Notes under the pieces: generated by a model
The model's database searches: none
What the model saw: only the letters and a program-made list of their open reading frames with translations
Told to the model about the DNA's origin: nothing
Part shown: positions 8,748-64,000 of the stretch, one piece after another
Layout: every line of letters begins with the position of its first letter
Position numbering within the stretch: the first letter of the stretch is position 1
Translations under genes and position numbers: made by a program
Source: Falsarthrobacter nasiphocae
GTDB lineage: Bacteria; Actinomycetota; Actinomycetes; Actinomycetales; Micrococcaceae
Length of the DNA stretch: 64,000 nucleotides
Direction of reading: 5' to 3'
NCBI RefSeq assembly: GCF_031456275.1
Contig: NZ_JAVDUI010000001.1
Span: 186,001 to 250,000 of the forward strand

Positions 8748-8821
8748 GCGGATGTAGCTCAGCTGGCTAGAGCACCACCTTGCCAAGGTGGATGTCGCGG
8801 GTTCGAATCCCGTCATCCGCT
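8748..8821 (+). tRNA. tRNA-Gly (anticodon GCC), copy 1
   Basis: The acceptor stem GCGGATG (8748-8754) pairs with CATCCGC (8814-8820). The anticodon stem CCACC/GGTGG encloses TTGCCAA with GCC at 8782-8784, and the T arm carries GGTTCGAATCC. No CCA is encoded after the discriminator base. It is identical over 74 nt to the copy at 9140-9213. Confidence 0.96.
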
Positions 8822-8864
8822 CGCTGGACCTCTTTCTGTGGGGCGCCTTCACGGGCCTTACCAG

Positions 8865-8938
8865 GGTGGGGTGGCCGAGAGGCGAGGCAGCGGCCTGCAA
8901 AGCCGTATACGCGGGTTCGAATCCCGTCCCCACCTCCA
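8865..8938 (+). tRNA. tRNA-Cys (anticodon GCA)
   Basis: The acceptor stem GGTGGGG (8865-8871) pairs with CCCCACC (8928-8934). The anticodon loop contains CTGCAAA with GCA at 8897-8899, and the T loop is GGTTCGAATCC. The discriminator at 8935 is followed by an encoded CCA (8936-8938). A short variable region fits tRNA-Cys. Confidence 0.95.
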
Positions 8939-9036
8939 GGTCTGGCAGCCAGTTCGGATTCTTCCTCACGGAGGGAACGGATTGGACAAGCAAGAAAGAT
9001 CATGTTAGACTGATCGGGTTGTAAAAAACCAAATCA

Positions 9037-9108
9037 GCGCGATTGGCGCAGCGGTAGCGCGCTTCCCTGACACGGAAGAGGTCACTGGTTCGATCCCAGT
9101 ATCGCGCA
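9037..9108 (+). tRNA. tRNA-Val (anticodon GAC)
   Basis: The acceptor stem GCGCGAT (9037-9043) pairs with ATCGCGC (9101-9107). The anticodon stem CTTCC/GGAAG encloses CTGACAC with GAC at 9069-9071, and the T arm contains GGTTCGATCC. The discriminator is A (9108). CCA is not encoded. A U-tailed hairpin follows 8 nt later. Confidence 0.95.
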
Positions 9109-9116
9109 CTGAAAAC

Positions 9117-9136
9117 AAGTGCTTCGGCACTTTTTT
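9117..9136 (+). terminator. Intrinsic terminator after tRNA-Val
   Basis: AAGTGC (9117-9122), a TTCG tetraloop and GCACTT (9127-9132), followed by T residues to 9136, is a textbook rho-independent terminator. It separates the Gly-Cys-Val group from the second tRNA-Gly, which starts 4 nt later. Confidence 0.85.
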
Positions 9137-9139
9137 CAT

Positions 9140-9213
9140 GCGGATGTAGCTCAGCTGGCTAGAGCACCACCTTGCCAAGGTGGATGTCGCGGGTTCGAAT
9201 CCCGTCATCCGCT
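9140..9213 (+). tRNA. tRNA-Gly (anticodon GCC), copy 2
   Basis: Identical over 74 nt to the copy at 8748-8821 but followed by an encoded CCA (9214-9216). The anticodon GCC is at 9174-9176. It starts directly after the terminator at 9117-9136, so it probably has its own promoter or survives through read-through. Confidence 0.96.
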
Positions 9214-9355: not shown

Positions 9356-10645
9356 GTGACGGATCACACTGACAGGCCTCACTCTGCCGCTGGCGCTCTC
9401 CCGGGCACCGCGGGCGAGCCCCGCACGCCCGTCGACCACCACGTGGCGGTGCCTCGAGACATCGCCTCACCGCTCAGCGCGGGCTTCGTCACGGCCGTCG
9501 TGGGCTTCTCGTCCTCGTTCATCCTGGTCCTCCAGGGGCTCGAGCACGTGGGGGCCTCCCCGACCCAGGCGCTGTCGGGGCTCATCGCGGTGACGCTCGC
9601 GTTCTCCGTCGGCATGGTGTGGCTCGCCGCCCGCACGCGCGTGCCCATGACCATGGCCTGGTCCACGCCCGGCTCCGCGCTGCTCATGACCACGGCGGCC
9701 CCGGAGGGCGGGTTCCCGGCCGCCGTCGGCGCCTTCATCCTCTGCGCCGCCCTCGTGGCGCTGACCTCTGTGGTCAAGCCGCTCGAGCGGTTCGTCCTCG
9801 GCCTCCCAACCTCCCTGACGCAGGGTCTGCTCGCCGGCATCCTCATCCCCATCTGCGTGGCGCCCTTCGCGGCACTCGCCACCTCCCCCGTCGAGGCCGG
9901 CGCCATGCTGGCCGTCTACGGGATAATGCTCCTCGTGGCCCCGCGGTGGTCAGTCCCGGCGGTCCTCGTCGTCGCCCTGGGACTCTCGGTGCGCGCCTTT
10001 GCGGCCTCAGGCGAGGCGTGGGCGTGGCGCCCGCCCGTCCTCGAGTTCACCGCCCCGACCTTCGATCTTCAGAGCGCCCTGTCCATCGGCGTCAGCCTCT
10101 TCATTGTGACGATGGCGGCCCAGAACCTCCCGGGCATCGGGGTGCTGCGGAGCTTCGGCGAGAATCCGCCGTGGAAGGCGTCGATGGTCGTCTGCGGCGC
10201 GACGTCTGCCGCCTCCGCCCTCTTCGGCGGCCACGCCACGAACCTGTCGTCGCTCAGCGCGGCGATCGCCGTCGGGGAGATGAGCGGCAAGGATCCGCGC
10301 ACGCGCTGGTGGGCCACGCCGGCCGCCGCGGTGGTCTATGTGATCCTCGCGCTGGCGGCTGGCTCGCTGGTCGCGCTCATGTCGCGCTCCCCTGCCGGAG
10401 TCGTCGCGTCCCTCGCGGGCCTGGCGCTGCTGCCCACTTTCACGACGACGGCGCGGGCCGCCCTCACTGACCCCGCGTACGCGGGCCCGAACGCCGTCGT
10501 GATCCTCATCGGGGCGTCGGGGCTGACGGTGGCCGGCTTCTCGGGCGCAGTCTTCGCGTTCCTCGCGGGGCTCGTGCTCCACGGCGTCGTCCGTCGTCGC
10601 CTCCTGGCAGCCGAGCCGAAGACCCCCGTGGCCGTCACGGAATAA
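9356..10645 (+). CDS. BenE-family (benzoate/H+ symporter-like) transporter
   Basis: A 429-residue integral membrane protein with about 11-12 hydrophobic segments spread over residues 40-415. Family marks of the BenE transporters are seen: MAWSTPGSALL near residue 100, a QG-containing helix and FGGHATNLSSLSAAIAVG near residue 285. BenE proteins import benzoate or other aromatic acids with protons, but no benzoate catabolic genes lie nearby, so the substrate here is open. The GTG start at 9356 has GGAAGG about 13 nt upstream; a later start is possible because the first 35 residues are non-conserved. It is transcribed alone, converging on the VOC gene. Confidence 0.82.
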   Translation: MTDHTDRPHSAAGALPGTAGEPRTPVDHHVAVPRDIASPLSAGFVTAVVGFSSSFILVLQGLEHVGASPTQALSGLIAVTLAFSVGMVWLAARTRVPMTMAWSTPGSALLMTTAAPEGGFPAAVGAFILCAALVALTSVVKPLERFVLGLPTSLTQGLLAGILIPICVAPFAALATSPVEAGAMLAVYGIMLLVAPRWSVPAVLVVALGLSVRAFAASGEAWAWRPPVLEFTAPTFDLQSALSIGVSLFIVTMAAQNLPGIGVLRSFGENPPWKASMVVCGATSAASALFGGHATNLSSLSAAIAVGEMSGKDPRTRWWATPAAAVVYVILALAAGSLVALMSRSPAGVVASLAGLALLPTFTTTARAALTDPAYAGPNAVVILIGASGLTVAGFSGAVFAFLAGLVLHGVVRRRLLAAEPKTPVAVTE

Positions 10646-10719: not shown

Positions 10720-10824
10720 CAGAATTGGCCCCGCCCCCTGAATTGGCGTTTGCCACCTGCAATGTCAGTGGCAAACGCCGATCACGGGGGCGAAACGGGC
10801 TCGCCTGCCAAACGAGGGGGCGAA
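10720..10824. repeat. 105-bp palindromic intergenic repeat, copy 1
   Basis: This segment matches 11441-11545 at 103 of 105 positions (differences at 10780 and 10786), in the same orientation. It contains inverted arms at 10742-10756 and 10768-10782 around an 11-nt loop, and outer arms (CGCCCCCTG and a CGGGGGCG-type partner) that extend the stem. It lies between the converging benE-like and VOC genes and so could also act as a bidirectional terminator. It encodes no protein that I can support. Confidence 0.9.
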
Positions 10825-10882
10825 CAGGAGCCCGAGCGGGCGAAGAGGGACAGCGTGCCACGCGCCGCACGGGCGAGCGGGG

Positions 10883-11248
10883 CTACGAACCGCCGTTGAG
10901 GATGCAGAACTCGTTGCCCTCGGGATCGGCCATCACGGCCCAGCCGAGGTCTCCCCGCCGGTCGTCGACCATGGTTGCGCCGAGGGTCACGGCCCGGTCC
11001 ACTTCCTCATCCCGGCTTGCGCCCTCCGGCACGAAGTCCATGTGCGCGCGGTTCTTGAGCTTCTTGGCATCGGGGACCTTGTAGAAAAGGATCAGGTGGC
11101 CATCGGGGCTGACAAGATAGCACTCGTCCGAGCCCGGGTGGTAGCACTCGGATTCCGCAACATCCCAGGCGAGGAGCTCACGCCAGAATTCGGCAATCGT
11201 ATGCGGGTCCAATGCGTCCCAGGTGGTGTGGGACAAACGCAGCGACAT
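10883..11248 (-). CDS. VOC/glyoxalase-like superfamily protein
   Basis: A 121-residue single-domain protein with the look of a glyoxalase/VOC fold: MSLRLSHTTWDAL at the N-terminus, FWRELLAWDV helix, HMDFVP strand with a metal-type His, GATMVDDRRG and the terminal ADPEGNEFCIL motif, which is the usual VOC ending. Substrate cannot be told from sequence. I use the ATG at 11246-11248; the frame opens 24 codons earlier without similarity. It is flanked on both sides by copies of the 105-bp repeat (10720-10824 and 11441-11545). Confidence 0.82.
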   Translation of the reverse strand: MSLRLSHTTWDALDPHTIAEFWRELLAWDVAESECYHPGSDECYLVSPDGHLILFYKVPDAKKLKNRAHMDFVPEGASRDEEVDRAVTLGATMVDDRRGDLGWAVMADPEGNEFCILNGGS

Positions 11249-11563
11249 CGGAGACCTCTCTTCTGCCAGGCCCAGGGCGGGTCGGCGTACGTGTGGCTGG
11301 GGAGCGTCGATCTTGCGCACGACTCTACGCGGCCGTGCCGGCGTATCCCCCTATCCATGAGTCGCGCCGTCCTCCGGCTGCCCCAGCCGTGCCCTGTCCC
11401 GCTGACGTCGCGCAGGCTCGAAAGACTCGCCGAGGCCCGTCAGAATTGGCCCCGCCCCCTGAATTGGCGTTTGCCACCTGCAATGTCAGTGGCAAACGCC
11501 AATCACAGGGGCGAAACGGGCTCGCCTGCCAAACGAGGGGGCGAAACGGCGGGCAGCGCGCGC
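11249..11563. other. Intergenic region between VOC gene and zapE
   Basis: No gene is supported in these 315 bp. They hold the upstream region of the VOC gene and the second copy of the 105-bp repeat at 11441-11545, which lies just downstream of zapE. Confidence 0.6.
11441..11545. repeat. 105-bp palindromic intergenic repeat, copy 2
   Basis: Second copy of the element at 10720-10824. Here the inner arms ATTGGCGTTTGCCAC (11463-11477) and GTGGCAAACGCCAAT (11489-11503) are perfect complements; copy 1 has one mismatch at 10780. Outer CCCCTG and CAGGGG segments extend the stem past a small bulge. The copies are 721 bp apart. This copy sits downstream of zapE, the first downstream of the VOC gene, so both are at transcript ends. 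Confidence 0.9.
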
Positions 11564-12613
11564 CTAGACGCCCTTGCCGCCCTCGCGAGCCATCGACGTC
11601 AGGCGCGAGATGGCGCGGAAGTACTTCTTGAGGTAGCCCCCCTCGAGCATGCGCTCGGTGAAGAGCTGGTCGAACGGGACACCCGAGGCGAGGACGGGGA
11701 CGTCGAGGTCGTAGAGGCGGTCGGCGAGAACCACGAACCGCAGGGCCGTCGCGTCGTTGTCAATCGTCCGGACGCCGCGCCACACGACGCCGCCGATCCC
11801 CTCAACGAGCTGGCGGTACCGGCTGGGGTGGACGGCGTTGAGGTGTGTGAGGAGGTCCTCGAAGTCGTCGAGGGCCACGACGCGGCCGAACTCCGGGCCG
11901 AGGTGCTGCTCGGGGTGCTCGAGGAGGGTGTCGTCGATGGGGGTGGGAGGCGTCGGCAGGCCGCGGTGGCGGTAGTCCTCACCGTCGATCCGCTGAACCG
12001 AGAATTGGCTCGAGAGGGTCTGGATCTCCCGCTTGAAGTCCTGCGCCGCGAAGCGCCCCTCGCCGAGAGAGCCGGGGAGGGTGTTGCTCGTCGCGGCCAG
12101 CCGGACGCCCGCGTCCGCGAGCTCTCGCATGAGGCGGGACATGAGGACGGTGTCGCCCGGGTCGTCGAGCTCGAACTCGTCGATGCACACGAGGCGGTAC
12201 TGGCTGAGCGCCTCGACGGTCTTGCGGAACGTCAGGGCGCCGACGAGGTTCGTGTACTCAACGAACGTGCCGAACGCCTTGGGCCCTTCCGCTGCGTGGA
12301 AGAGGGAGGCGAGCAAGTGGGTCTTGCCGACGCCGAAGCCGCCGTCGAGGTAGATGCCCGCCGGAGCGGAGTCCCGCTTGCGGCCGAAGAGCTTCCCGAG
12401 GAACCCGCCCGACGCGCCGCCGGCATTGACGTCCGCCGCGAAGGCCCGCAGGCGGCTCACGGCCTCGGCCTGGCTGGGCTGGGAGGGGTCCGGGACATAA
12501 GAGTCGAACGAGACGTCGGCGAAGCGGGGCGAGGGCGCGAACCCAGCCAGCAGCTCCTCGACGGAGACGCTCGGCGTCCGCTGCGTGAGATGGACGAACT
12601 CGTGATCGCTCAT
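11564..12613 (-). CDS. zapE: Cell division ATPase, AFG1-like
   Basis: A 349-residue AAA-type ATPase of the ZapE/AFG1 family. Walker A is GGFGVGKTH and Walker B is [26 protein letters not shown] is the family sensor-1 segment, and [13 protein letters not shown] lies near the C-terminus. In proteobacteria ZapE acts at the Z-ring under stress; in Actinobacteria the role is less defined. The ATG at 12611-12613 is chosen over the frame opening at 12649 because the extra 12 residues are not conserved. Transcribed alone, divergent from sseA. Confidence 0.9.
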
Positions 12614-12939
12614 GTGGATGCTGGACCTTCGCGTGTGGGGACGCGGCACGGCAGTGGCCGCGAGCCGCAGGCGGCGCCCCCTGTGCGGGAGCAGGCGCCC
12701 GTACTAGGGTACGGGATGCCGGGCGGCGCAGGTCGCTGGCTGGGTTCCGTCCTCGCGCCGGTGTGAGAGGACGACGACGGGGCCGCGGCGCTCGTCGGGC
12801 CGCCCTCTCCCCTCCGCCGCGTGCCGGGCCGCGCGGCCCGACGGAGCCTTGCCTTACTAGGCGGGCCGCCGTGCCGCGCCGTAAAATAAAGAAAGACCTC
12901 CGTCACCTATTGGCCCAGCCAAGACAAGGATCGAGAACA
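12614..12939. other. Divergent zapE/sseA intergenic region
   Basis: These 326 bp hold no gene that I can support. They contain an inverted repeat CGTCGGGCCG (12793-12802) / CGGCCCGACG (12834-12843) and, nearer sseA, a TAAAAT box at 12882-12887 that could be a -10 element, although no good -35 is seen at 16-18 bp. A 19-nt GC-rich string at 12772-12790 recurs at 28343-28361. Confidence 0.45.
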
Positions 12940-62758: not shown

Positions 62759-64000
62759 ATGTCAGAATTTGTCAACCTTCCGGCTCTCGGCGAGTCGGTC
62801 ACTGAAGGCACCGTGACGCGCTGGCTCAAGTCCGTCGGCGACACCGTCGAGGTCGACGAGCCTATCGTTGAGGTCTCCACCGACAAGGTGGACACTGAGG
62901 TCCCCTCGCCCATCGCGGGCACCATCGAGGAGATCCTCGTCGACGAGGACGAGACCGTCGAGGTCGGCGCGCCCCTCGTCAAGATCGGGGACGGCTCCGG
63001 CTCGTCCGCGGGCGAGTCCGATGCCCCCGCCGCCGAGGAGTCCTCCGACGACGAGGCCACCAAGGCTGCCGAGGCGAAGTCCGAGGAGCCGACGGCCGAG
63101 TCCGCCGACGAGCCCGCTGAGAAGGACGAGTCCTCCACCGAGGCCCAGGCCCCCAAGGGCGGCTCCGGCGAGGGCACCGAGGTCACGCTTCCCGCGCTCG
63201 GCGAGTCCGTCACCGAGGGCACCGTCACCCGCTGGCTGAAGTCGGTCGGCGACTCCGTCGAGGTCGACGAGCCGCTGCTCGAGGTCTCCACGGACAAGGT
63301 CGACACCGAGGTCCCCTCCCCCGTCGCGGGCACGCTCCTTGAGGTGCGCGCTGACGAGGACGAGACCGTCGAGGTCGGCGCCGTCCTCGCCGTGATTGGC
63401 GACGGCTCCGCGGCCGCCTCGTCGTCGGACGCTCCCAAGGAGGAGCCGAAGGACGAGCCCAAGGCTGAGAAGGCCGAGGAGGCCAAGGCCGCAGCCGCCC
63501 ACCAGGAGGCCCCGAAGGAAGAGAAGAAGGCTGAGGCCCCCAAGGCTGAGCCGAAGGCCGAGGCGCCCGCGCCGAAGCCCGCCGCTTCCTCCGAGGACCA
63601 GGGCGAGGCCGGCTACGTCACGCCGATCGTCCGCAAGCTCGCCAAGCAGCAGGGCGTGGACCTCTCCACGGTCAAGGGCACGGGTGTCGGCGGACGCATC
63701 CGCAAGGAAGACGTCGAGAAGGCTGCTGAGGCAGCTGCCTCGGCCCCCGCGGCGACGTCCAGCTCCTCGAGCCCGGTCCAGCGCAAGGCCCCCGAGGTCG
63801 TCGAGGACACGACGCTCCGCGGAACCACGCAGAAGGCACCTCGCATCCGCCAGGTCATCGCCCGCCGCATGCGCGAGTCCCTCGACATCTCGACCCAGCT
63901 GACGCAGGTCCAGGAAATCGACATGACTCGCGTGGCCAAGCTCCGCAACGCCGCCAAGACGAAGTTCCAGCAGGAGAACGGCACCAAGCTGACGTTCCTG
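62759..64000 (+). CDS. sucB: 2-oxoacid dehydrogenase E2 (SucB-like), 5' part
   Basis: The gene runs off the right edge after 414 codons. Two lipoyl domains are seen, with lipoylation sites K43 and K180, each inside [12 protein letters not shown]; they are close copies of one another. Long Glu/Lys/Pro/Ala linkers separate them. A peripheral subunit-binding domain ([18 protein letters not shown]) begins at 286, and the acyltransferase domain starts near 360 ([14 protein letters not shown]). Actinobacterial E2 of this type serves the pyruvate and/or oxoglutarate complexes, so the substrate is not settled. CAGGAG precedes the ATG. Confidence 0.9.

Follow-up and report, generated by a model that had tools for sequence, protein, structure and literature searches.

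A glyoxalase-like gene of the VOC kind is bracketed by two nearly identical palindromic repeats in the window (the whole 64,000-nucleotide stretch of Falsarthrobacter nasiphocae DNA that was analysed), which raises the question of what these repeats are and how they might have come to enclose a gene. A repeat search of the window confirmed the direct repeats given in the preliminary description (10720..10824 and 11441..11545, unstranded, 105 nt each, spaced 721 bp apart and identical at 103/105 positions or 98%). The long hairpins ascribed to them were borne out as well, as the two copies fold at -62.1 and -57.8 kcal/mol, ~6 SD better than shuffles (z -6.05 and -5.89; 0/200 shuffles as low), with inner 15-bp arms that are perfect in copy 2 and carry one mismatch in copy 1. 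Each repeat holds a 67-nt palindrome core on the minus strand (10729..10795 in copy 1, where the loop word on that strand is GACATTGC, and 11450..11516 in copy 2). The VOC gene between them (10883..11320, minus strand; an ORF with a Pfam Glyoxalase_6 match, E 4.5e-27), a candidate cargo gene, may start further in, at the methionine of MSLRLSH. To its left lies a transporter gene (9356..10645, plus strand; function assigned by eye) and to its right an ATPase gene (11564..12649, minus strand), which we take to be ZapE/AFG1-like and whose best relatives are found in Arthrobacter, Sinomonas, Kocuria, Rothia and other genera, which places the genome in the Micrococcaceae. That both repeats lie at transcript ends, as had been proposed, is true of copy 1, located between the convergent stops of the transporter (10645) and VOC (10883) genes; copy 2 lies past the ZapE stop (11564) but ahead of the VOC start. 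Elsewhere in the window, 8748-9213 contains four tRNA genes, of which one pair, 392 bp apart, shares 99% identity over 78 bp, and a 229-nt direct repeat (62771-62999 and 63182-63410) is 83% identical.

The two repeats belong to a family dispersed over the genome. BLAST of copy 2 against its own genome (G000, a Micrococcaceae genome in one contig of 2,195,465 bases, 2.2 Mb) gave many more matches, and a covariance model built from 23 copies aligned without gaps, which match it by construction, found 56 matches in G000, corresponding to at least 28 sites, each on both strands (a lower bound, with 150 of 750 first-look candidates scored). Copies 1 and 2, both among the 23 used for building, scored 77.7 bits (E 8.8e-14; G000:C1:196719-196803, minus) and 78.1 bits (E 7.0e-14; G000:C1:197440-197524, minus). 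The 67-nt core (consensus GTTTGCCCCCTnGTTTGGCGTTTGCCACnGACATTGCAGGGGGCAAACGCCAAACnAGGGGGCAAAC) has a loop word, ATTGC, that is invariant in 23/23 copies, and the mean pairwise identity of the 28 copies over this core is 72%. The exact 10-mer GTTTGCCCCC occurs 32 times in G000 versus 3 times for the reversed control, which, together with the at least 28 sites, shows that the palindrome is not a product of chance. At 27 site loci, a simple gene caller placed 15 copies between convergent genes and 1 between divergent genes (raw counts, the others being co-directional or unresolved), and for many copies the nearest stop codon is 5-50 bp away. Five pairs of palindromes are less than 2.5 kb apart: three consist of mutual best matches, namely the VOC pair (97%), 528793/530084 (91%) and 1492088/1494567 (84%), and two do not (348761/349004, 67%; 915492/916093, 73%).

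The family thus has the dispersed, multi-copy extragenic palindromes of REP/RAYT systems, and the earlier proposal of a REP- or MITE-like family stands in that the copies are dispersed, near gene ends and patchy between species, but not in the matter of target-site duplication: across 18 offsets, no flanking 4-8 bp repeat was detected beside any of the 28 copies (repeats of 2-3 bp being indistinguishable from chance), so that the family does not show the target duplication expected of MITEs. A structured Rfam RNA or an RNA selected for base pairing was set aside, as no Rfam match was found for the repeats in the window and 17 loci and covariation of the variable paired positions was not clearly beyond that of shuffles (score reached by 51/500). 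A DNA uptake sequence was likewise rejected, 30 of the 32 exact GTTTGCCCCC words lying in or within ~65 bp of the 28 sites, and integron attC sites were considered but not favoured, the palindrome sites being scattered over the chromosome. As separate observations, tandem arrays continue from one palindrome arm at G000:C1:1439.8 kb (L030) and at 528.8 and 530.1 kb (L034), with ~40-bp units, and on contig C22 of the related genome G001 (L101), with ~31-bp units; the outer and inner copies of an arm word are spaced by 19 bp, judged by eye, in several genomes and by 20 bp in G086.

Comparison with two genomes of the same genus (G001 and G002) revealed that the element is patchily distributed among sister species. 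The transporter and ATPase genes that flank the VOC site have adjacent orthologues in G001, where 30 bp separate the two stop codons and neither a VOC gene nor repeats are present; G002 has kept the ATPase gene with no transporter match beside it. The anticipated deletion of the VOC gene leaving a single repeat was therefore not seen, and the empty site in G001 is more readily explained by insertion in the lineage of the window than by the less probable loss of everything. The 348761/349004 site has ~49 bp between aligned blocks in G002 versus 426 bp in G000, the 1055554 site has no copy in G001 or G002, and at the 1481362 site G001 has a palindrome array with a different sequence, an arrangement equally compatible with a local role that is conserved. 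Hence three of the four comparable gene pairs lack the element in sister genomes and one holds a different palindrome; the 734856 site has another neighbour in G002 and no match in G001. Together with the at least 28 dispersed sites, these sister sites lacking the element refute the local duplication that had been put forward as the alternative. Among 395 Micrococcaceae genomes, the covariance model (E <= 1e-4, strict filters) recognised related but distinct palindromes in at least 10 genomes, the window genome included, and 6/32 genera, a lower bound in that 11 of 756 first-look candidates were scored in G000. On contig C1 of G002 (L210:84-14236), seven long palindromes of three sequence families occur within 14 kb, several of them about one gene apart, and one pair encloses a divergent relative of the nuclease described below.

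REP-like palindromes are common among bacterial repeats, and to our knowledge the only enzyme tied to them is the HUH-type RAYT. A RAYT-type transposase, which the preliminary description proposed to look for, was not found: the RAYT/IS200-type domain (Y1_Tnp, PF01797) had no match in G000, G001, G002 or G008, 2/39 genomes in all had one and 5/14 control genomes were positive, which argues against RAYT mobilisation of these palindromes, and the GTAG or CGTC tag is absent from the 23-copy consensus by eye. What the preliminary description lacked is the enzyme, as palindromes of this kind adjoin a PD-(D/E)XK-type nuclease gene. The genes inside close palindrome pairs of G086, G276, G000 and G002 encode one kind of protein of ~300 aa (the G002 member being divergent), with a winged-helix-like N-terminus and C-terminal motifs such as SESxGES, DF, GEFDGxxKY and EKxR. 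A first profile from three of these proteins, run on the open frames of 207 sources (the window plus 206 loci, many overlapping), also matched nucleases in G008, in two Rothia loci and, weakly (E 2e-4), in G002, and all matches but the G000 seed, whose palindromes fall below the scan threshold, are flanked on either side by a long palindrome. Palindromes had played no part in choosing the two Rothia loci, which belong to a set of 80 retrieved on account of the ATPase gene. A six-nuclease profile (E <= 1e-10), in which palindromes were no criterion, found the nuclease in at least 305/395 Micrococcaceae genomes from 25/32 genera. In a sample of the phylum Actinomycetota, at least 59/396 genomes have it. 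Both are lower bounds, at most five to seven candidates having been scored per Micrococcaceae genome and, for the phylum sample, 5 of 26 in G000.

By sequence comparison, the protein is predicted to be a PD-(D/E)XK enzyme with an AbiEi-like N-terminal part. Across 40 aligned members (what remained of 59 retrieved loci once partial and redundant sequences had been set aside), E187, E230, D232 and K236 do not vary and D219 is kept in at least 90%, the residue pattern expected for a PD-(D/E)XK active site, and membership of that superfamily is thus predicted from its conserved active-site residues. Pfam at E 0.01 matched AbiEi_4 (PF13338) in 18/40 members, DUF559 (PF04480) in 2/40 (best E 3e-7) and REase_MTES_1575 (PF18741) in 2/40, the nuclease part of most members matching no Pfam family, and one PADLOC AbiEi model matched 5/6 nucleases at E 0.1. 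As AlphaFold2 models of two Rothia sequences had a mean pLDDT of 42, the predicted fold draws on these weak Pfam matches and the motifs; a sequence search of the PDB gave weak matches, to a thymidine kinase (E 0.025) and an endonuclease-like chain (E 0.32). Five proteins scanned against NCBIfam had no match, the candidate partner nuclease had no transposase domain match, and of 20 pattern matches on viral contigs none was confirmed. Nuclease matches in G194, G205, G271, G279, G301 and G364 contain one in-frame stop, as if decaying. In Rothia nasimurium a palindrome-nuclease-palindrome unit lies beside tRNA genes (L180:8155-9472), where two other strains have an ABC-F-like gene (by eye) instead (L179:8238-10087 and L174:8404-10271); this locus varies between strains and no clean empty site was found there.

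To quantify the association, palindromes (at least 20/24 paired, loop 3-19) were scored around the nuclease at the 30 top-scoring relatives, one per genome, of which six are seed loci originally found beside palindromes and some come from close species (L302 and L303 are nearly alike). A palindrome lies within 300 bp of the nuclease match at 25/30 loci and on both sides at 13/30, and with the seed genomes removed these values are 20/24 and 9/24, respectively. Counted by gene side within 520 bp, palindromes are present 5' at 23/30, 3' at 16/30 and on both sides at 14/30 loci. Close to the match (up to 300 bp away), 38 palindromes fall in 17,853 bp versus 1 in 70,800 bp further out, with 58 in 1,575,898 bp of other DNA and 0 in 357,060 bp of shuffled near flanks. 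At 70 loci of the control gene ZapE (the ATPase, a core gene and not a matched accessory gene), a palindrome was found within 300 bp at 5/70 on any side, in all five cases 3', and at none on both sides. The spacing from the matched coding region is fixed, at 79-129 bp upstream (one at 503) and 1-59 bp downstream, and the palindromes near nucleases are 52-74 bp long. Those of one locus are usually alike by eye, and protein identity correlates with palindrome similarity (rho 0.64, 0/2000 permutations, 23 loci, that is the 25 with palindromes minus L282 and L303), a correlation that may come in part from shared ancestry. The five loci below threshold have 16-19/24 paired at the expected place, the four non-seed ones 18-19/24 versus 15-17 in outer flanks; L284 (17/24) is not distinct from outer flanks by pairing alone and is identified by the covariance model. 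Of 29 new loci in the phylum sample, L308 is again from Micrococcaceae, and the 28 outside the family have a palindrome somewhere at 15/28, within 500 bp at 13/28 and on both sides at 8/28 (21 palindromes in 27,815 bp near the gene versus 3 in 55,000 bp far from it), a weaker signal (13/28) than in the top 30. Across many genera, this one nuclease family is flanked by palindromes of quite different sequence.

Such hairpins could also be bidirectional terminators that end convergent transcripts, with the nuclease genes carrying strong terminators on both sides. The raw surplus of convergent over divergent site loci, the many copies close to stop codons, the length and stability of the hairpins and the strictly 3' position of the five ZapE palindromes all speak for this explanation. 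We nevertheless regard it as unlikely, as the consensus has no T-tract and is conserved in sequence including the loop, the variable paired positions do not clearly covary, and ordinary terminator-like hairpins (by eye) adjoin sites 494129, 1420084 and 1174949. Moreover, the element is missing at the same gene pairs in sister species, and in 23/30 nuclease loci a palindrome lies upstream of the gene, where a terminator of that gene would not require one.

In the window genome, the profile found one nuclease gene (G000:C1:1492214-1493113, minus strand), and since 5 of 26 first-look candidates were scored there, more may exist. A palindrome of the window family (core 1492096-1492162) starts 51 bp past its stop codon, within the range seen elsewhere; only this 3' palindrome is adjacent, and at the threshold used elsewhere the locus counts as a miss. 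The second palindrome partner of the nuclease gene may be 1494567, the best match of 1492088, which lies ~1.5 kb from the gene. In between are genes for a MerR/TipAS regulator and for a glyoxalase-like protein (PF00903 at 19.4 bits, short of the 20.6 cut-off) that is not close to that of the VOC pair (28% over 85 aa, E 2.1). Some 1.3 Mb of chromosome separate the nuclease gene and the VOC pair (0.9 Mb in the opposite direction should the chromosome be circular), so the proposed link between them depends on shared palindrome sequence. The VOC pair looks like a cargo unit without a nuclease, as does the 528793/530084 pair, which encloses two genes, one predicted by eye to encode a membrane protein and the other a PadR-like regulator. 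An IS3-like transposase gene (by eye; L271:1912-2787, G000 ~527.9-528.8 kb) adjoins one palindrome of the latter pair.

These loci bear on two further explanations. The nuclease might be a defence or toxin-like enzyme of a self/non-self system, in which the palindromes serve as decoys, operators or protection sites and are not mobile. The AbiEi antitoxin-like N-terminal part described above (Pfam and PADLOC) agrees with this, and flanking palindromes could autoregulate the nuclease gene; solo copies that differ in place between sister species and pairs that enclose genes without a nuclease (the VOC and 528793/530084 pairs) do not, and we judge this explanation improbable. That the palindromes are classical MITEs of a DDE-type insertion sequence now lost from G000, with the nuclease genes as passengers, is very improbable, for although they are short, palindromic, dispersed and patchy between species and an IS3-like gene adjoins site 528793, no copy has a target-site duplication of 4 bp or more, neither BLAST nor the exact 10-mer revealed in G000 a larger element or parent insertion sequence with the same ends, and in many genera this nuclease family is enclosed by palindromes that differ greatly in sequence.

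We therefore favour a reading, which we consider likely, in which a nuclease-based mobile system, organised like REP/RAYT with an unrelated enzyme, uses the palindromes as its recognition or end sites. The autonomous unit would be a palindrome, a nuclease gene and a second palindrome, ~1.2 kb in all; its predicted enzyme has an AbiEi-like winged helix at the N-terminus and, at the C-terminus, a PD-(D/E)XK (DUF559/REase_MTES_1575-like) domain. The nuclease would bind the palindrome of its own lineage, as duplex or extruded hairpin, and cut at the palindrome or a related site, and the break would be repaired by copying another palindrome copy plus adjacent DNA. Such repair could leave the VOC gene, the PadR/membrane-protein pair and the MerR and VOC genes bracketed by similar palindromes. 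Homing-like repair is preferred here over transposition because of the missing target duplication and transposase domain match, and it is the weakest step of the mechanism. The solo palindromes, at no fewer than 28 sites for one nuclease gene found, are best read as non-autonomous copies, which would be mobilised in trans, and the VOC pair as a cargo unit of the palindrome-nuclease system, with capture of the VOC gene as the presumed event.

If this is correct, a second, unrelated nuclease is tied to palindromes and this genome lifestyle arose more than once, and an actinobacterial gene family that is very common and poorly annotated, with its members in at least 305/395 Micrococcaceae genomes, would acquire a job. 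The nuclease-palindrome pairs are directly testable as enzyme-site pairs. Mobile elements are classed by their enzyme, and on this ground, and with some defining features of REP/RAYT systems and MITEs looked for and not found here, we count the palindrome-nuclease system as a new category, a label that falls if the nuclease does not act on the palindromes. Among the titles and opening lines of abstracts found by searching an open-access library, none connects these nucleases with palindromes, and the combination is apparently an undescribed mobile DNA system.

Among known systems, AbiEi_4, DUF559 and REase_MTES_1575 proteins resemble the nuclease by the domain matches given above, but the nuclease part of most members is unmatched and the open-access search gave no palindrome link for these families either. 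Free-standing homing endonucleases, including Vsr-like ones, are likewise encoded by a small gene and could in principle spread by break and copy repair, whereas here intact palindromes lie beside the gene and solo copies are dispersed, and the nuclease shows no tie to introns or inteins or to any single conserved gene. MITEs share the small, non-autonomous repeats with inverted ends and differ by the target-site duplication not found for this family and the parent insertion sequence not found in G000, whose candidate partner nuclease had no transposase domain match. In layout, the system resembles REP/REPIN and RAYT systems (REPtrons; PMC3733652), where extragenic palindromes particular to a species likewise occur in tens of copies close to the ends of genes and members of the palindrome family flank a nuclease gene. 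The differences lie in the enzyme, which is predicted to combine a PD-(D/E)XK-like part with a winged helix of the AbiEi type and is not the HUH/Y1 transposase of REPtrons, and in the palindromes, which measure 52-74 bp versus the 20-40 bp given for REPs. With belief and doubt about evenly balanced, we propose that AbiEi-like/PD-(D/E)XK nucleases and lineage-specific 52-74-bp palindromes constitute a new, Actinomycetota-wide class of mobile element that would spread by cut and copy, carry mobile cargo such as the VOC gene and represent a convergent counterpart of REP/RAYT.
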